From Desulfovibrio sp. (lineage in GTDB: Bacteria > Desulfobacterota > Desulfovibrionia > Desulfovibrionales > Desulfovibrionaceae): DNA of 50,142 nt. Position 1 is the first letter of the stretch; each line of letters starts with the position of its first letter. The stretch spans positions 1 to 50,142 of the forward strand of contig JAITSV010000041.1 in the NCBI GenBank assembly GCA_031287575.1, written 5' to 3'. The position numbers and the translations under genes were made by a program. This document shows positions 125 through 11,068 of the stretch, in pieces. The notes under the pieces are model-generated. The model saw only the letters and a list, made by a program, of their open reading frames with translations. It was not told the DNA's origin and made no database searches.

Positions 125-907
125 ATGTCGAGACGCTGGGTAGAGGCCAATCTGGCCGAGTTCGCACGGGACGTCATGCGGGATTTCTGCATGGCGAGCG
201 TCGTGCTCGAGGGGCAGTTCCACCGCTTCGACGAGGCCGGTGCCGTATCCTTCCCCGTCATGCGCGACCTTCTGGGCGAAATGATGAACAAGGGGCTGCT
301 CTGGCGTCTGAAAGACACCGCGCACCACCTCTTCCGCAACGACCCGGCGCAAGACCCTGTGGCGCCCATGCTGGACTGGGCCGTGGGCTACGCCTTTCAC
401 GAATGCGTGAAGCTGAAGGAAGACGCCTACCAGCACCAGCACTACGCGCCGCAGTACCGGGCCCTGCGCGAGCAGGACATGGGGGAGGAACTGCGGGCCA
501 TCGTCGAGCCGCTCGCATCCATGCTGGCCCAGACGCGGGAAAGCATGGAGCGCGAAATCCGGCGCATCCGCTACATCCTTGGCCGCATCCGCAGGCTGAT
601 GTGCCTGTACTACGCCGCCCACGGCGGCAACAGGCTGCTGGCGCGGCTGCTGTTCGACCGCGACGAGCTTGTGCGCTCGGTGTTCGGCGAAGAGTACGGG
701 CCGCTGCTGCAAGGATTGTACGGCGACAAGCCGGAGCGCATGTTCATCCAGGCGGGGGAATCCCTGCTTGACGGCGGCAGGCCCGAAGACGCCCTGCGCG
801 CCGCGCACGCCGCCGTGGCCCTGGCGCCCGGCTGCCAGCGCGCGCACCGCCTTGTGGCCGAGGCGGAACAGCGTATCGACCAGACCCCCCGAAGGAGAGC
901 CATCTAG
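125..907 (+). CDS. Uncharacterised protein with TPR-like C-terminus
   Basis: A 260-residue soluble protein that I cannot assign to a family. It has no signal peptide or membrane segment. The middle (about residues 115-165) is charged and helical, rich in Arg and Glu, and could form a coiled coil. The last 50 residues contain a stretch (SLLDGGRPEDALRAAHAAVA) that reads like one tetratricopeptide repeat. The start follows a TTGGAG about ten bases upstream. The stop is two bases before the next gene, and that gene's ribosome site lies inside this coding end, so the two are probably co-transcribed and translationally coupled. The function is unknown; the linkage suggests a role tied to the downstream citrate-synthase-like enzyme. 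Confidence 0.75.
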   Translation: MSRRWVEANLAEFARDVMRDFCMASVVLEGQFHRFDEAGAVSFPVMRDLLGEMMNKGLLWRLKDTAHHLFRNDPAQDPVAPMLDWAVGYAFHECVKLKEDAYQHQHYAPQYRALREQDMGEELRAIVEPLASMLAQTRESMEREIRRIRYILGRIRRLMCLYYAAHGGNRLLARLLFDRDELVRSVFGEEYGPLLQGLYGDKPERMFIQAGESLLDGGRPEDALRAAHAAVALAPGCQRAHRLVAEAEQRIDQTPRRRAI

Positions 908-909
908 CC

Positions 910-2739
910 ATGAGCCTGCTGCATCTCAACCGCGCCTCCTCCCGCGTACGGCTGGAGAACCGCGACGACCCCGAACTGTACCGCGAGATCTTTCCCTATT
1001 CCAAGATCAGCCGCGTGGAGTTCGACGACATCTTCCTGATGCCGCGCCCGGCGGAACCGATGTTCATCACGGACACGACCTTCCGCGACGGCCAGCAGGC
1101 CCGCCCGCCCTATACGGTGAAGCAGATCGTGCACATCTACGACATGCTGCACCGCCTTGGCGGTCGCAGCGGGCTCATCCACGCCTCGGAGTTCTTCATG
1201 TACTCCGAGAAGGACCGCAAGGCCATCGAGGCCTGCCGGGCCAAGGGATACAAGTTCCCCCACGTCACCGGGTGGATCCGGGCCAACGTCAACGACCTGA
1301 AGATCGCGCGGGACATGGAGTTCGAGGAAGTGGGCCTCTTGACCAGCGTGTCGGACTACCACCTGTACCTCAAGCTGGGCCTGGACCGCGAAAAGGCCAT
1401 GGAAAACTACCTGCGCGTGGTGGAACAGGCGCTGGAATGGGGCATCACCCCGCGCTGCCACTTCGAGGACATCACCCGCGCCGACATCCACGGCTTCTGC
1501 CTGCCCTTCGCGCGCAAGCTGATGGACCTTTCGAAGCAGAGCGGCCAGCCGGTCAAGATCCGCATGTGCGACACCATGGGCTACGGCGTGCCCTACCCCG
1601 GCGCCACCCTGCCCCGCTCGGTGCCGCGCATCGTGCGCGCCCTGACCGACGAAGGCGGCGTGCCCGGCCAGTGGCTGGAATGGCACGGCCACAACGACTT
1701 CCACAAGGTGCTCATCAACGGGGCCACCGCGTGGCTGTATGGCTGTTCCGGCGTCAACTGCACCCTGCTGGGCTTTGGCGAGCGCACCGGCAACACCCCG
1801 CTGGAAGCGCTGGTGATCGAATACATCTCGCTGACCGGCGACGACGACGCCGCCGACACCCGGGTCATCAGCGAGATCGCCGAATACTTCGAGAAGGAAC
1901 TGGATTACCGCATTCCGGACAACTATCCGTTCGTGGGCAAGGACTTCAACGCCACCAGCGCGGGCATCCACGTGGACGGCCTGGCCAAGAACGAGGAAAT
2001 CTACAACATCTTCGACACGCGCAAGATCCTGAACCGGCCGGTGCCCATCATCATCACCGACAAGTCGGGCCGCGCGGGCGTCGCATACTGGATCAACCAG
2101 TACCTTGGCCTGGCCGAAGACCGGCACGTGTCCAAGAAGCACCCCGCCGTGGGCAAGATCTACACCAAGATCATGGACGCCTACGAAAAGGGCCGCAACA
2201 CGTCCTTCTCCAACAAGGAAATGAAGGCCCTGGTGCGGCGCTACATGCCCGAGCTGTTCGCCTCTGAATTCGACCAGATCAAGAAGCTGGCGGGCGAACT
2301 TTCGGCGCACCTGATCATCAAGCTGGCCCAGGAATGCCAGATCACCGGCCTTGGCGGCGAGGACAAGTACCCCTGCATGCGCGACTTCGTGCGCGAGTAC
2401 CCGTTCATCCAGTACCTGTACCTCACCGACAAGGAGGGCAAGCTGCTCTCCGCCGCCATCACCGACCCGGCGTACAAGTCGAAGTACGACCAGCTGCCGC
2501 TGGGCTTCGACTTCTCCAACCGCGCCTGGTTCATCCGCCCCATGCAGACCGGCGAACTGCACATCACCGACGTGTACCAGTCGCAGTTCACCAGCCAGCT
2601 CATCCTTACCGTGTCCACGGCGGTCACCGACGACAACGACGAGATCACCGGGGTCATCGGCGCGGACATCCAGATCGAACAGCTGCTCCGCCAGGCCGAG
2701 GCCATCGAGGACGTGGTGGACGGCGATTCCGACGACTAG
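910..2739 (+). CDS. HMGL-family acyltransferase, probable Re-citrate synthase, fused to a Cache-like domain
   Basis: A 609-residue protein. Residues 50-430 form a pyruvate-carboxyltransferase (HMGL-like) TIM barrel of the isopropylmalate/homocitrate synthase group. Visible motifs are DTTFRDGQQ at 55-63, HGHND at 259-263 (metal ligands) and GERTGN at 290-295. Desulfovibrio make citrate with Re stereochemistry using an enzyme of this family, and a homologue close to dsrAB is the usual candidate, so Re-citrate synthase (oxaloacetate plus acetyl-CoA) is the best guess; 2-isopropylmalate or homocitrate synthase are alternatives. Residues about 483-600 are an extra domain with Cache/PDC features: LYLTDKEGKL, then FDFSNRAWF at 533-541, then GVIGADIQI near the end. 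No transmembrane segment is present, so this sensor-like domain is cytosolic. A strong terminator follows. Confidence 0.85.
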   Translation: MSLLHLNRASSRVRLENRDDPELYREIFPYSKISRVEFDDIFLMPRPAEPMFITDTTFRDGQQARPPYTVKQIVHIYDMLHRLGGRSGLIHASEFFMYSEKDRKAIEACRAKGYKFPHVTGWIRANVNDLKIARDMEFEEVGLLTSVSDYHLYLKLGLDREKAMENYLRVVEQALEWGITPRCHFEDITRADIHGFCLPFARKLMDLSKQSGQPVKIRMCDTMGYGVPYPGATLPRSVPRIVRALTDEGGVPGQWLEWHGHNDFHKVLINGATAWLYGCSGVNCTLLGFGERTGNTPLEALVIEYISLTGDDDAADTRVISEIAEYFEKELDYRIPDNYPFVGKDFNATSAGIHVDGLAKNEEIYNIFDTRKILNRPVPIIITDKSGRAGVAYWINQYLGLAEDRHVSKKHPAVGKIYTKIMDAYEKGRNTSFSNKEMKALVRRYMPELFASEFDQIKKLAGELSAHLIIKLAQECQITGLGGEDKYPCMRDFVREYPFIQYLYLTDKEGKLLSAAITDPAYKSKYDQLPLGFDFSNRAWFIRPMQTGELHITDVYQSQFTSQLILTVSTAVTDDNDEITGVIGADIQIEQLLRQAEAIEDVVDGDSDD

Positions 2740-3297
2740 CGACCGATTGGCAAGGCCCGGGGGCGGCAACGCTTCCGGGCCTTTTTTGTTTGCGGCGCGC
2801 ACCTGCGCCTCCCGTCAGGAGCAGGGTCGGGAGCAGTGCGGGACAGGTCCGATGCCCTGGATTTAGCGGAGGGGGCATCCCCGCCGTGTCATGCCCAGGC
2901 AGGACTGCTGCGACGGCATGCGCCCACGCCCCATGGGGAGTGCCCCGCCGCACCTGTACGGACAAAACGGCATTGCGCCGTGCCCGCCACTGCCTGCTGC
3001 GTTGCGTGGCAGGCGGATGTGCAAGCAGTTGCGTACGCGGCGGTTTTCGGTAACAGTCCGGAAAACGCACGGCGCGTCGTGCCCACCGTGCTTGGCATGT
3101 CATGTCCCGTGGATTGTGTTGGGCACAGTGGTTGGGTGATTGCGTAAAACCTGCTGTGCCAGACCCGCTGCGCAGACCCGCTACGACCGCATGCCGTGCG
3201 TATCCGGAACGACCGTTTTCCGCTGCCGCCCGATTGCGTCATGATTCGCTCATGGCCGCCGTACTCGCCGTATCCGGCGCAACCCGACGGAGCCTTA
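2740..3297. other. Intergenic region, no gene seen
   Basis: Apart from the terminator at its left end, this 558-base stretch shows only short open frames that overlap each other on both strands and lack ribosome sites. I see no RNA gene or clear repeat. It must hold the promoter of the downstream rlpA gene, but no convincing -35/-10 pair was found. Confidence 0.5.
2753..2787 (+). terminator. Rho-independent terminator after the citrate-synthase-like gene
   Basis: Stem AGGCCCGG (2753-2760) pairs with CCGGGCCT (2775-2782) and is followed by a run of Ts to 2787. It starts 14 bases after the stop codon. Confidence 0.85.
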
Positions 3298-4104
3298 ATG
3301 CCGCACCTTCGCCCCAGCCAGACCTGTTCCTCACCGTCCCTCCCCGTTCTGCCTGTCCTCTCCATCGTACCCATCGTGCCCATCGTGCTGTTGTTGCTCG
3401 CCGCATTGCTGGTGGCGGGCTGCGGCTCCGGCCCGCGTCGCATTTCCGCGCCGCCGTCGGACCAGTCCGTGAAGTACCCCAAGGGTGAACCTCAGGGGCC
3501 GCGCGCCAAGCCGTATACGGTGCTGGGCAAGACCTACCATCCGCTGCTTTCGGCGCACGGGTTTTCGGAAGAGGGCGTGGCCTCGTGGTACGGCAAGGAT
3601 TTTCACGGCCGCAAGACCGCCAACGGCGAAATCTACGACATGTACGGGCTGACCGCCGCGCACAAGCTGCTGCCGTTCAACACCGTGGTCAAGGTGACCA
3701 ACCTGCAGAACGGCCGGTCCACCACCGTGCGCGTCAACGACCGGGGTCCCTTCGTGGGCGACCGGATCATCGACCTGACCAATACCGCCGCCAACCAGAT
3801 CGGCATGCTGGGCCCCGGCACCGCGCGAGTGCGCGTGGAATCCGTGGGCGACGTGCCCGGCCTGCAGGACGGCGACATGACCGGTCGCTTCTATGTGCAG
3901 GTGGGTGCCTTCTCCAACAAGGACAACGCCAGCCGCCTGGTGACCCGCCTGCAAGGCCAGGGCTGGAACGCCCGCATGTACTGGGCCGACATGGTCCGGT
4001 TCTGGCGCGTCCAGGTGGGTCCGTGGAGCACCCTGAGCGAGGCCGAGCGCATGCGTGAGAAGTTAAAGGGTGATTTTGCGGTCAACTTTGTGGTCGCGGA
4101 TTAG
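3298..4104 (+). CDS. rlpA: RlpA-family lytic transglycosylase lipoprotein with SPOR domain
   Basis: A 268-residue lipoprotein. The N-terminal hydrophobic segment ends in the lipobox LVAGC, giving lipidated Cys42. A double-psi beta-barrel RlpA domain follows (about 94-185) with GVASWYGKDFHGRKTANGE, AAHKLLPFNT and VNDRGPF, which contain the Asp and His needed for catalysis. The last 70 residues (from GRFYVQVGAFSNKDNA) are a SPOR domain that binds denuded peptidoglycan at the septum. RlpA enzymes cleave naked glycan strands in cell separation. The start at 3298 has GGAG five bases upstream; an in-frame ATG at 3196 would bury the signal peptide and is less likely. The signal peptide itself contains a small 9-base repetition (IVPIVPIV). 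A second RlpA protein lies at 10070-10723. Confidence 0.9.
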   Translation: MPHLRPSQTCSSPSLPVLPVLSIVPIVPIVLLLLAALLVAGCGSGPRRISAPPSDQSVKYPKGEPQGPRAKPYTVLGKTYHPLLSAHGFSEEGVASWYGKDFHGRKTANGEIYDMYGLTAAHKLLPFNTVVKVTNLQNGRSTTVRVNDRGPFVGDRIIDLTNTAANQIGMLGPGTARVRVESVGDVPGLQDGDMTGRFYVQVGAFSNKDNASRLVTRLQGQGWNARMYWADMVRFWRVQVGPWSTLSEAERMREKLKGDFAVNFVVAD

Positions 4105-7337: not shown

Positions 7338-7491
7338 CCGGGGCCGCTCACTGCCGTCCTTGTTCTTGGCTGCTCACGGATCTTACGGACAGGGCCGCGC
7401 CCTGCCATCCTTATTTTCGGCGGCTCGCGGCCGGGGCCGCTCGTGGTTTCCCCTACTTCCGGCTGCCTGCGGACCCTCCGGACAGGGCCGC
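7338..7491. repeat. Two 61-base imperfect direct repeats
   Basis: Copies at 7338-7398 and 7431-7491 both begin CCGGGGCCGCTC and end GGACAGGGCCGC, with similar interiors (CCTT..TTC.GGCTGC). The second copy overlaps the 3' end of the cyclic-di-GMP gene, which stops at 7453, so the last dozen codons of that gene are made of repeat sequence. Confidence 0.6.
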
Positions 7492-9657
7492 TCGCATCCA
7501 GTCCGCGAACCCGCCAGCGGGCAGGGGCTTGCTGTAGTAGTAGCCCTGCACCTCGCGGCAGCCATGGGCGCGCAGGAAATCGAGCTGGTCGTCGGTTTCC
7601 ACCCCTTCGGCCACCACGTTCAGCGACAGGTTGCGCCCCATGGTGACGATGGTGGAAACGATGGTGGCGTCGCCTTCGTCGCCGGGCACGTCGCGCACGA
7701 ACGACCGGTCGATCTTGATGGTGTCGATGGGGAAATTCTTCAGGTAGTACAGCGAGGAATGCCCGGTGCCGAAGTCGTCGATGGCGATGGAGATGCCCTG
7801 CTCCGCCAGCCGTTCCAGAATGGCCACCGAGGTGGGCAGGTCGCGCATCATGGTGGTTTCGGTGATTTCCAGTTCCAGTTGCGAAGGCGGCAGGCCCGAT
7901 TCGGCCAGGGCCGCCTGCACCCGGTCCAGCAGGTCCGGCTGGAACTGCCGGGCCGAGATGTTCACGGCGATGCGCAGCGGGCCAAGCTCGTCGGTCCAAC
8001 GGCGGGTCTGGATGCACGCGTCGCGCAGCACCCGTTCGCCCAGCGCCACCACGAGGCCGGTGTCTTCGGCCACGGGAATGAATTCAAGAGGCGGCACGAT
8101 GGTCCCGTCGGGCCGGGCCCAGCGCACCAGGGCCTCCATGCCGGTGACCTGCCCGGTCATGATGTCCACGCGCGGCTGGTAGAACACCACGAACTCGTCG
8201 TTCTCCAGCCCCTTGCGGATGCTCTTCTCGATGGCCAGGCGCCGGGTCACGTCGTCGTTCATGGCCTGTGTGAAGCGGCGGAAACGCGCGCCGCCCTGCT
8301 CCTTGGCGCGGTACATGGCGATTTCCGCGTTCTTCAGCAGGGTGGCCGGGTCGCGTCCGTCGTCGGGCGAAACGCTGATGCCGATGGACGGCATCACGTA
8401 CAGTTCGTGATCGGCGGCGTTGAAAGGCCGGGTGAACGCTTCCTGGATGCGTGTCGATTCGGTCTCTGCCACCTCTCCGTCACCCTCGCCCATGTCGGCC
8501 CGGGACAGCGGCAGCAGCATCACGAATTCGTCGCCGCCAAGGCGCGCCACCATGTCGCGCCGGGGGGCCATGCCCACCAGGCGCCCCGCCACGGCACGCA
8601 GCAGTTCGTCGCCCACGGCATGGCCCAGGCTGTCGTTGACGGTCTTGAAATTGTCCATGTCCAGGTACAGCACCGCCAGCCGGGCATCCGGCCCGCCCGC
8701 GAGGGCGTGGGCCTCCATGCGCTGGCGCAGCCCCATGCGGTTGGGCAGTCCGGTCAGCTCGTCGTGGGTGGCCTGGTGGACGATCTGCGCTTCCTTGCGC
8801 TTCAGCTCGCTGACGTCGAGGAAGGTGCCCACCTCGCCCGCGCGCTGGCCGGTGCGGTCGCGAAAATAGCTCTTGTACAGCACCAGCACCCGATCCTCGC
8901 CCGAGGCGTCGCGCAGGTCGATCATGCACGAGTAGCCCGCGCCGTCATCGTCCCCGGCATCCAGCCGCCGCCCGGATTCCTCGACGCGGCAGGCCAGTTC
9001 CTGCGGCAGTATCTCGTGCACCGAGCGGCCCACGATGTCTTCGGGGGCACGCCCGATCAGACGGCTGAAGGCGCGGTTGCAGCCGATGTAGGTGCCTTCC
9101 AGCGTCTTGTAGAACACCGGGTTGGGCATGCCCTCCACCAGGGCCTCGAGGAACTGGTTTTTCTCTTGCAGCAGGGCCTGGTATTCCACCAGGCGCTCGT
9201 TGGTCTCGCGCAGCTCGCGGGTACGTTCCTGCACCTCCTGCTCGAGGTGCTCGCGGTAGCGCTTGCGTTCCTCCAGCAGGCGGGCGCGCTCCAGCGCCTT
9301 GTTCACGGCGTGCTCCAGCACGCGCATGTCGGTGACCGGCTTGGTCACGTAGTCCCACGCACCGTGGCGCAGCGCCTCCACCGCCTCTTCCAGCACGCCC
9401 ACCCCCGACACCACGATGACGGGCACCTCGGGGGCGTCCTCGCGCAGGCGTTCCAGCACTTCCATGCCGCCCATGACGGGCATGCGCAGGTCCACCAGCA
9501 CGAGGTCGGGCGCGCTTTCGGTGAACGCCTCGAGTCCGCGGCGGCCGTTTTCCGCCTCGATCACGTCAAAGCCGCTGTCCTCGAGATAGGCGACCAGATT
9601 CGAGCGGACGTTGACGTCGTCGTCGATGGTCAGAATGCGGGGGGGCCGATGGAGCAT
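7453..9657 (-). CDS. Response regulator with PAS, GGDEF and EAL domains
   Basis: A 734-residue cytosolic signalling protein. A receiver domain (1-120) has acidic residues D12-D14, phospho-acceptor D56 in LVDLRMP, and K in YVTKP. A coiled coil (RYREHLEQEVQERTRELRE) leads to a PAS domain (about 165-285). The GGDEF motif is intact at 374-378, so diguanylate cyclase activity is plausible. The allosteric I-site position reads PRRD rather than RxxD. The EAL domain keeps E508-A-L, NISARQF, ETTMM, DDFGTGHSSL and EGVET, so phosphodiesterase activity is also plausible. It therefore makes or breaks down cyclic-di-GMP in response to a partner kinase, none of which lies nearby. The start at 9657 begins just ahead of the receiver domain; it has no strong ribosome site. 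Confidence 0.92.
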   Translation of the reverse strand: MLHRPPRILTIDDDVNVRSNLVAYLEDSGFDVIEAENGRRGLEAFTESAPDLVLVDLRMPVMGGMEVLERLREDAPEVPVIVVSGVGVLEEAVEALRHGAWDYVTKPVTDMRVLEHAVNKALERARLLEERKRYREHLEQEVQERTRELRETNERLVEYQALLQEKNQFLEALVEGMPNPVFYKTLEGTYIGCNRAFSRLIGRAPEDIVGRSVHEILPQELACRVEESGRRLDAGDDDGAGYSCMIDLRDASGEDRVLVLYKSYFRDRTGQRAGEVGTFLDVSELKRKEAQIVHQATHDELTGLPNRMGLRQRMEAHALAGGPDARLAVLYLDMDNFKTVNDSLGHAVGDELLRAVAGRLVGMAPRRDMVARLGGDEFVMLLPLSRADMGEGDGEVAETESTRIQEAFTRPFNAADHELYVMPSIGISVSPDDGRDPATLLKNAEIAMYRAKEQGGARFRRFTQAMNDDVTRRLAIEKSIRKGLENDEFVVFYQPRVDIMTGQVTGMEALVRWARPDGTIVPPLEFIPVAEDTGLVVALGERVLRDACIQTRRWTDELGPLRIAVNISARQFQPDLLDRVQAALAESGLPPSQLELEITETTMMRDLPTSVAILERLAEQGISIAIDDFGTGHSSLYYLKNFPIDTIKIDRSFVRDVPGDEGDATIVSTIVTMGRNLSLNVVAEGVETDDQLDFLRAHGCREVQGYYYSKPLPAGGFADWMRAALSGGSAGSRK

Positions 9658-10069
9658 GGGACGGCTGTTTCCTGTGGCTTGCGCTGATGGGGTTGGCGAT
9701 ATGTTGCATTCCAGATTGCCAAGCAGCGGGGAAATTATCCACAAAAAAAATGTCCGCATCACGTCGGGTAGTGACGGCCCGATGGTGATGCGCTCTTGCG
9801 GCACACGGGGAGGCGCATGGCCGAAGCCTGCGACCGCTTGCGGATACGCGAAGCGGGAGGAGGGCGGCAGTCGGCATTGCCGCCCGGCTCGTGCATGCAG
9901 GGGGCATGCGATCATGCCCGCTGGCGCGGGGCGGAAAAGGTGCCGGAACGTGTGGCAGGGCGGCCCTTTTCGGGCCGCCGGGCGGTACGGGCGCGCCGGA
10001 AGAATGCCCTCACGTCGATGCGAGCGGGCTGCCGGACAGCGGGGGACGGCGGGGGACGGCGGGGGACGG
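9658..10069. other. Intergenic region with hairpin and 10-base tandem repeat
   Basis: No gene is seen. It holds the upstream region of the GGDEF-EAL gene (an A8 run at 9743-9750 is the only AT-rich patch), a GCGGCCC/GGGCCGC hairpin at 9959-9979, and three tandem copies of GGGGGACGG(C/T) at 10041-10070 that run into the stop codon of the next minus-strand gene. Confidence 0.5.
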
Positions 10070-10723
10070 TCAGTCTCGGGCGCGGTCGGCCACGATGTCG
10101 ATGTCGGCGTGGCGCTGCATCAGGTGGCGGCGCAGGGCGCGTGCGTCGTCGAAGTCGCGGAAGGGGCCCACGCAGACCATCCAGCGCTTGCGGCCGTTTT
10201 CCGTGCGCGCGCGGACGCGCGCGGCCGCTTCGCCTTCGCGTTCGAGCCTGCGGACCAGCCGTTCGGCTTCGGCCTTGCTGGCGTACGACCTGATGCGGAC
10301 GAAATAGGCGCTGTCGGGGTCCAGGGGACGGCCCTTGGCGTCACCCAGCACCTCGATGCGCACGGCGGCGCTGCCGGGCTTGACGATGCCCAGCTGCTTC
10401 GCGGCGGAGTAGGAGACGTCGATGTCGCGGTTGCCGCGATAGGGGCCCCGGTCATTCACCGTGACCAGCACGGAACGACCATTGGAAAGGTTGGTCACGC
10501 GGACCACCGTGCCGAGGGGCAGGGTCTTGTGCGCGGCCGTCAGGGCGTTCATGTCGTAGCTTTCGCCGCTGGCGGTCTTCTTGCCGTGCAGGTCGTCGCT
10601 GTACCACGAGGCGCGGCCGCGCTTGGCGGGTGCCTCGCTGGCCGCCGCGGGCAGCGGCGCGGGAAGCAGCGCACAGAGCATCAGGATGGTCGTCAGGTAT
10701 CGTAGGGGGTGGCGTCGGGTCAT
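10070..10723 (-). CDS. RlpA-like double-psi beta-barrel protein with SPOR-like C-terminus
   Basis: A 217-residue periplasmic protein. It has a Sec signal peptide with hydrophobic core LTTILMLCALL and probable cleavage after AAA or ASE, and no lipobox Cys, unlike the paralogue at 3298. The RlpA barrel shows GRASWYSDDLHGKKTASGE, AAHKTLPLGT and VNDRGPY, with the catalytic Asp and His in place. The C-terminal segment (AYFVRIRSYASKAEAERL to the end) looks like a SPOR domain. The start at 10723 is fixed by AGGAGG six bases upstream. It is likely a peptidoglycan-active enzyme in division or daughter-cell separation. Confidence 0.87.
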   Translation of the reverse strand: MTRRHPLRYLTTILMLCALLPAPLPAAASEAPAKRGRASWYSDDLHGKKTASGESYDMNALTAAHKTLPLGTVVRVTNLSNGRSVLVTVNDRGPYRGNRDIDVSYSAAKQLGIVKPGSAAVRIEVLGDAKGRPLDPDSAYFVRIRSYASKAEAERLVRRLEREGEAAARVRARTENGRKRWMVCVGPFRDFDDARALRRHLMQRHADIDIVADRARD

Positions 10724-11068
10724 GGGCCTCCTGTGGTTGCGTGCCACGGAAGGTCGTGGCGGGTCGTGTCCTGCCCGGCGCAAGGACACGGCTCTGGGGC
10801 AACTTTCGGTATGTCCCGTCGTGCAACGGGCTGCCGGGCAAACCTTGGGGGTGGCACCTCGACAGTACCGTGTTTTTCCCGTATATCGCCGCACGTGTCA
10901 ACGTGCCGCAATCCCGGCATGTTACGAGGCGATACTACGGCAACATGCTGTTACGCCACAGTACGTGGGCACAGTGTTGCAGCATTATTTTTTTCGCCCT
11001 TCCCGCGACGAGCCCCGCGCATCGTGCGCCCGCGCCGCCGCGCCTTTTCCTGCACGCGGGAGTCGTTC
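10724..11068. other. Divergent promoter region between rlpA-like and EamA genes
   Basis: The two genes point away from each other. An inverted repeat GCACGT-GTCA-ACGTGC lies at 10891-10906 and could be a regulator site. A TTGACA reads on the minus strand within the same element. A run of Ts at 10985-10992 precedes the EamA gene. No coding sequence is supported. Confidence 0.4.

Follow-up and report, generated by a model that had tools for sequence, protein, structure and literature searches.

Relation to described citrate synthases and Cache domains

Re-citrate synthases have been divided into a Syntrophus/Clostridium kluyveri type and a separate Clostridioides/Thermoanaerobacter type, and the word 'domain' is absent from the available part of that report (PMC12016533). 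Cache domains are described, in the available parts of two reports, as sensors of signal transduction that lie mostly outside the cell (PMC4822843, PMC10104139). The first of these, in the part at hand, treats the Cache families as principally extracellular, with the exception of Diacid_rec and YkuI_C, and, besides a cut-off SMP_2 domain, as extracellular signal-transduction modules (PMC4822843); the accessible part of the second places the amine subtype only in signal-transduction proteins or as stand-alone domains and calls its one intracellular case rare (PMC10104139). The literature searched, as judged by titles, contained no report of a Cache on a citrate synthase or isopropylmalate synthase and no related report on a cytosolic or C-terminal Cache. 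A search of the same literature by locus name for DVU0398, presumably the corresponding gene of Desulfovibrio vulgaris, yielded no paper. We are aware of no further enzyme of this family with a Cache as its proposed allosteric domain, and of no mention of a Cache in the papers on the Syntrophus aciditrophicus or C. kluyveri enzymes.

Here we describe a gene that joins an enzyme of this kind to a Cache, located in a 50,142-nucleotide stretch of Desulfovibrio sp. DNA (the window, meaning the whole stretch that was analysed). Its features are as follows:

125 to 907, plus strand: upstream neighbour, 260 aa, with a weak TPR-like tail (Pfam TPR matches under the cut-offs only)
910 to 2739, plus strand: fused protein gene, Re-citrate-synthase-type enzyme with C-terminal Cache (open frame, Pfam, full-length relatives)
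1066 to 1821, plus strand: HMGL-like catalytic barrel, residues 53-304 (Pfam, alignment A2)
1822 to 2247, plus strand: subdomain after the barrel, roughly residues 305-446 (in A2, H354 and Y365 never vary)
2248 to 2331, plus strand: linker, residues 447-474 (alignment, conservation)
2332 to 2697, plus strand: Cache domain, residues 475-596 (PF02743, PF22673 and PDB profile matches)
2521 to 2529, plus strand: candidate pocket residues R538 and W540, corresponding to PctA R126 and W128 (each in 72 of 72 representatives)
2575 to 2583, plus strand: Y556, corresponding to PctA Y144 (67 of 72), and S558 (72 of 72; conservation, PDB alignment)
2665 to 2667, plus strand: D586, corresponding to PctA D173 (72 of 72 representatives)

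The fused protein is probably of the same enzyme kind as the Re-citrate synthases of S. aciditrophicus (SYN_02536) and C. kluyveri. A relative from Syntrophus sp. (L153) carries the same fusion, with 629 aa and a computed mass of 71.5 kDa. The purified S. aciditrophicus enzyme reportedly has a tagged subunit of 73 kDa and accepts only acetyl-CoA and oxaloacetate as substrates. Because the two masses are close, the characterised S. aciditrophicus enzyme very probably already bears the Cache. With the 2-isopropylmalate and citramalate synthases that contain the LeuA domain PF08502, the fused protein has the HMGL barrel and a C-terminal, presumably regulatory domain in common, but it lacks PF08502 and has a Cache in its stead. 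It shares with PctA-type dCache_1 receptors the equivalents of R126, W128, Y129 (as F), Y144 and D173, whereas its Cache is single, cytosolic and attached to an enzyme, with an unconserved Y121 equivalent. Like YkuI_C and the C-terminal Caches of chemoreceptors, its Cache is both cytosolic and C-terminal, but the partner is a metabolic enzyme instead of a signalling protein.

Domain layout and proposed working

The frame at 910-2739 is open and encodes 609 aa. HMGL-like (PF00682) matched residues 53-304 (1.7e-30, 106.8 bits against a Pfam cut-off of 29), dCache_1 (PF02743) residues 475-596 (1e-14, 55.1 bits against 45) and MCP-like_PDC_1 (PF22673) residues 499-592 (43.5 bits against 27). Two profiles over their curated cut-offs thus place the C-terminal part in the Cache superfamily, as the initial annotation had suggested. 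Only positions 57-159 of the 240 in the dCache_1 profile were matched, and the protein therefore holds a single Cache module and not a double one. LeuA_dimer (PF08502) gave no Pfam match in the fused protein, so that a LeuA-type regulatory domain, the alternative named beforehand as fatal to the idea of a sensor, is ruled out for the C-terminal part. Pfam likewise revealed no signalling output domain in the fused protein. The usual extracytoplasmic setting of a Cache between membrane helices, which is not a strict requirement, is not found here: the protein has no membrane segment, its top 19-residue Kyte-Doolittle mean of 0.92 being well under the level of a membrane helix, and the description of a soluble protein with a cytosolic Cache holds. 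Conservation of residues 431-490 is below that of both flanking domains, and natural relatives without a Cache end near the close of the post-barrel subdomain. The linker at 447-474 probably corresponds to the long helix, here inferred, with which the Cache module opens.

We posit, with a probability of roughly 0.6, that the fused protein is an allosteric Re-citrate synthase whose cytosolic single Cache binds a small, probably amino-bearing carboxylate and thereby changes enzyme activity. The catalytic core, of the isopropylmalate/homocitrate synthase kind, would convert acetyl-CoA and oxaloacetate into citrate, the reaction that opens the oxidative branch to 2-oxoglutarate and glutamate. The Cache, with its pocket intact, would take the place of the LeuA allosteric domain of some cousins; R538 would face the carboxylate and D586 the amino group of the ligand, and binding would alter activity as a form of end-product feedback, e.g. 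by glutamate. Allostery through the Cache is likely on this evidence, and a metabolite of the cell, perhaps an amino acid, probably switches the enzyme up or down through it. An amino acid is a plausible ligand; glutamate is a guess. A Cache fixed on a central metabolic enzyme across much of a phylum would be a case of this sensor module put to work in direct allostery, and would offer a handle on the control of Re-citrate synthase, likely the step of entry into glutamate in many sulfate reducers and syntrophs.

Candidate ligand pocket

Conservation was scored on 157 sequences (158 less L036), reduced to 72 representatives under 80% identity. Within the Cache part, Q501, R538, W540, G548, S558 and D586 are invariant in all 72, F541 is kept in 71 (Y in one) and Y556 in 67. 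A profile of the Cache (A3) was built from 31 of 80 named relatives, the window protein and three chemoreceptor Caches, and its HMMER alignment with PctA equates R538, W540, F541, Y556 and D586 with R126, W128, Y129, Y144 and D173, the PctA numbers being counted from the residues named in papers. At these five positions of the dCache_1AA motif the 72 representatives hold R in 72, W in 72, an aromatic residue in 72, Y in 67 and D in 72, and the positions rank 6, 1, 4, 15 and 8 among 111 Cache positions (permutation p 2e-5). The motif's Y121 has no conserved counterpart here (E in 20, Y in 14 and T in 12 of 72; rank 96 of 111), and adding it weakens the permutation p to 0.003; the strict amino-acid motif thus fails, and we do not class the domain as a dCache_1AA member. 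The residues of the dCache_1PU purine motif (McpH F167 and D169) are replaced by T567 and S569, at places located through the PctA alignment and the PctA-McpH correspondence given in the available part of PMC11245519. The own genome has 21 dCache_1 matches, and four of them, including the fused protein and a cytosolic chemoreceptor Cache, show the whole R-x-W-[FY], Y, D pattern. These results bear out the earlier remark on ligand-binding hallmarks insofar as the predicted pocket is conserved. Conservation of W and F can be structural, and some of the invariance may be due to constraints of folding.

As for the ligand, the PDB entries matched by A3 were the chemoreceptor 4xmq, KinD, PctA, PctC and the cytosolic YkuI protein. 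KinD, whose ligand is pyruvate, was the second-best of these and shares the Y-x-S-x-x-T-G stretch and the arginine with the fused protein. The Cache might accordingly sense a keto acid or another carboxylate of the substrate side (pyruvate, oxaloacetate, 2-oxoglutarate or citrate) instead of an amino acid, which we regard as a possible but clearly less probable reading, since the invariant D586 faces an alanine of KinD in the alignment. The available text of two papers describes the same aspartate as key in amino-acid and amine receptors (PMC10104139, PMC11245519): D173 is named there as a key residue of the amino-acid motif and Y129 as structural (PMC10104139), and the D173 position as strictly conserved in the amino-acid and amine motifs (PMC11245519). 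R126 of PctA binds the carboxyl group of the ligand, according to the part of PMC10104139 at hand.

Spread of the fusion and relatives without a Cache

Matches to the fused protein were found in 108 of 199 genomes of the class sample (at 1e-60) and in 197 of 395 genomes of the phylum sample (at 1e-40). Each of the phylum matches listed (150 of the 197) extends at least to residue 594. Among named relatives, the best 80 of 590, a selection tilted to close kin, have 571-651 aa and are each matched at least as far as residue 588; Syntrophus, Syntrophorhabdus, Thermodesulfatator and Desulfarculales are represented among them. The fusion is thus old and spread through the phylum. The survey first suggested for Desulfovibrionaceae did find it there, but it reaches beyond that family and is not special to it.

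A Cache attached by chance or by an annotation slip was rejected, as all 80 of these best relatives (of 590) reach through it. In-frame stops had been flagged in some relatives and were considered as a recoding signal; this was dismissed, since in each of the four loci inspected (L073, L077, L078 and L079) a single open frame spans the Cache to its end, and the flagged stops there seem to lie just where the aligned segment finishes. A search of viral contigs for a relative of the fused protein found none. Plasmids (215 records) held only distant relatives, all below 60% identity, the top two being Deinococcus proteins; the only one scanned (L193) contains HMGL-like alone.

Of the other 47 matching phylum genomes, the 15 with the weakest E-values were searched again. 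Three had the full length with Cache, three had C-terminal fragments with Cache, three had N-terminal pieces at a contig end, and one (L207) lacked its start and ended near residue 461. In the remaining five (L198, L200, L202, L204 and L205) the frame is complete, stops near residue 450 and includes no Cache. PF00285, the Si-citrate synthase family, was found in none of the six genomes with Cache-less relatives, three of which reach 90% completeness or more with contamination of 5% or less, and the bare enzyme thus seems to serve alone. Five complete Cache-less relatives in PF00285-free genomes suggest that the Cache is dispensable for catalysis; that they manage without it also weighs against the allosteric reading. 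Two of these genomes fall within the 79-genome sample (G245 and G263) and have no match to the enzyme Cache anywhere at 1e-12.

These relatives bear on the idea that the Cache is a passive assembly module without a ligand, a substitute for the LeuA dimerisation domain in keeping the dimer or tetramer assembled. It does occupy the place that LeuA_dimer has in two cousins, its mean conservation score is below that of the enzyme part (0.56 vs 0.68), and Cache modules often pair via their long first helix. We nevertheless hold this to be unlikely: complete enzymes exist without any Cache, the charged or polar residues R538, S558 and D586 are each kept in 72 of 72 representatives, and only three of the own genome's 20 other dCache_1 matches have the whole motif.

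A tree of the enzyme part (86 rows) separates L204, L205 and a Deinococcus relative from the fused set (fork 92/82, drawn open), but groups L198 and the pair L200/L202 with the fused proteins, at a weakly supported fork (86/53). This fits, if not firmly, a single gain of the Cache with later losses. A different case is L036, from a genome of the same order (G093), which has 42-47% identity and a C-terminal part without a Cache match, with gaps at the R, W and D positions of the pocket. Its place in the tree is a long-branch placement and is not relied on. G093 also carries a Si-citrate synthase, and the decay of the Cache in this one case fits a relaxed need for regulation. L036 still adjoins a homologue of the window's upstream gene.

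Identity of the enzyme

The fused protein is very probably the Re-type citrate synthase of the cell. Its barrel retains R59, D60, E186, H259, H261 and N295, invariant in the 68 sequences of alignment A2, which we take to have the catalytic and metal roles of their counterparts in isopropylmalate synthase; an HMGL-like barrel with these residues intact is what a Re-citrate synthase calls for. Si-citrate synthase (PF00285) gave no match in the own genome. The same order, presumably Desulfovibrionales, was sampled with 150 genomes irrespective of completeness: the fused gene is present in 85 (E <= 1e-60, including a few fragments) and PF00285 in 63; 81 have the fused gene only, 59 PF00285 only, four both (G023, G038, G042 and G093) and six neither. 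This near-exclusion (Fisher p 1e-29, on related and hence not independent genomes) changes little when three weak partial PF00285 matches are removed (four, 81, 56 and nine with both, fused gene only, PF00285 only and neither). With 81 of 85 carriers free of PF00285, the fused enzyme appears as the stand-in for the missing Si-citrate synthase, and the initial annotation was right to call it citrate-synthase-type. Beyond the order, PF00285 is absent from four of the five genomes behind named fused loci; the fifth, a Syntrophus genome, has a weak partial match (61 bits, profile positions 166-349, in a 615-residue frame) and no whole citrate synthase.

A product other than citrate, namely homocitrate or isopropylmalate, is very improbable. 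The best NCBIfam models for the enzyme part were indeed NifV and archaeal LeuA, but NifV reached 138.5 bits against a cut-off of 462.9, and every model matched, all of the homocitrate, isopropylmalate or citramalate synthase kind or aldolases, stayed far under its cut-off. The own genome has five HMGL-like matches over the cut-off including the fused protein; the other four are separate paralogues, two of which (L003 and L005) match LeuA_dimer. Exclusion with PF00285 also argues against these products, as do the adjoining dehydrogenases, which score as isocitrate type. One point in their favour comes from locus L161, where the aconitase-type subunits score as homoaconitase/isopropylmalate dehydratase.

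Gene neighbourhood

Neighbours were clustered from the open frames of 127 loci (L037-L063, L066-L085 and L086-L165), which include a few genomes twice and have flanks of unequal length. In 28 of the 127 loci the fused gene is followed, in the same orientation, by a member of the isocitrate/isopropylmalate dehydrogenase family, within about 220 bases in 22 and about 1.8 kb away in six, where two aconitase-type frames stand in between. Frames of the aconitase family follow it in the same orientation in 25 of the 127. Scanned examples match PF00180 (L106) and PF00330 (L089). Four dehydrogenases scanned (L101, L143, L161 and L130) passed NF005425 in all four cases and TIGR00183 in two, both being models of NADP-isocitrate dehydrogenase, and scored far lower with the isopropylmalate and homoisocitrate models. 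In Desulfovibrio, the aconitase-like partner scores over the cut-off of PRK11413 'hydratase'. In L161, both subunits are recognised solely by models of the homoaconitase/isopropylmalate-dehydratase family and thus, alone, do not point to citrate over its analogues. Taken from these gene assignments, the pathway beside the fused gene is likely citrate to isocitrate to 2-oxoglutarate. In the window itself, the fused gene has no such aconitase or isocitrate dehydrogenase neighbour.

The upstream gene (125-907, plus strand) has its stop 2 bases ahead of the ATG of the fused gene, in line with the coupling noted before. A homologue adjoins the fused gene in several genera, in part of the order only, and none was found in 20 phylum loci with flanks of about 2.5 kb per side. 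A needed partner is therefore unlikely, and this candidate was rejected.

Some further neighbours were recorded. An RlpA-type protein (DPBB and SPOR) is encoded directly downstream of the fused gene (3238-4104, plus strand), and an RlpA-like gene follows the citrate synthase in 19 of 127 loci, judged by clustering and reading of one member. By reading, a second RlpA-like frame lies at 10070-10894 (minus strand) and a response regulator with PAS, GGDEF and EAL at 7453-9915 (minus strand). Reading also places genes for aspartyl- and histidyl-tRNA synthetase upstream of the citrate synthase, in the same orientation, in many loci (L083 and L145 among them; clusters of 49 and 32 loci). The aconitase-like genes beside the citrate synthase in L101 (7098-9488) and L104 (5834-8236) score above 1150 bits with PRK11413 and low with AcnA and AcnB; they may be the working aconitase of these Desulfovibrio cells.

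Origin of the Cache

A profile of the enzyme Cache, built from the 72 representatives, was run on the own genome. Its top relative was the C-terminal Cache of the chemoreceptor L006 (same as L187; 85.8 bits), which stands behind the signalling domain and is therefore cytosolic; the remaining Cache proteins there reach 34.9 bits at most. The earlier statement that Caches are usually extracytoplasmic thus needs a qualification: the Cache is cytosolic here, as stated, but cytosolic Caches also occur on chemoreceptors of the own and related genomes. A3 gave 42 matches at 1e-12 in 79 phylum genomes. Four of these are clearly non-enzyme, namely the own-genome chemoreceptor, L246, L247 and L248, each with a C-terminal Cache, and the other 38 are taken to be the enzyme, by place or frame length, or else fragments. 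Some of the chemoreceptor Caches (L064, L065 and L247) also match the intracellular Cache family YkuI_C. That the Cache ties the citrate synthase to the chemotaxis machinery as a moonlighting function is scarcely credible, since the fused protein has no signalling output domain, even if the closest Cache relatives found sit on chemoreceptors.

As to how an allosteric citrate synthase of this kind would have arisen, we tentatively suggest, as a possibility that we think doubtful, that early in the phylum an amino-acid sensor of chemoreceptor type was recruited, its source being a lineage of cytosolic Caches that also supplied chemoreceptors, giving feedback by glutamate or a close amino acid on the sole citrate synthase. 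If this were true, it would be a case of a Cache outside signal transduction.

Six chemoreceptors (L006/L187, L064, L065, L246, L247 and L248) carry their Cache at the C-terminus after the signalling domain, and hence in the cytosol; L247 has no clear membrane segment, by reading. An R-x-W-F, Y-x-S, D pattern is common to these chemoreceptor Caches and the citrate synthase Cache.
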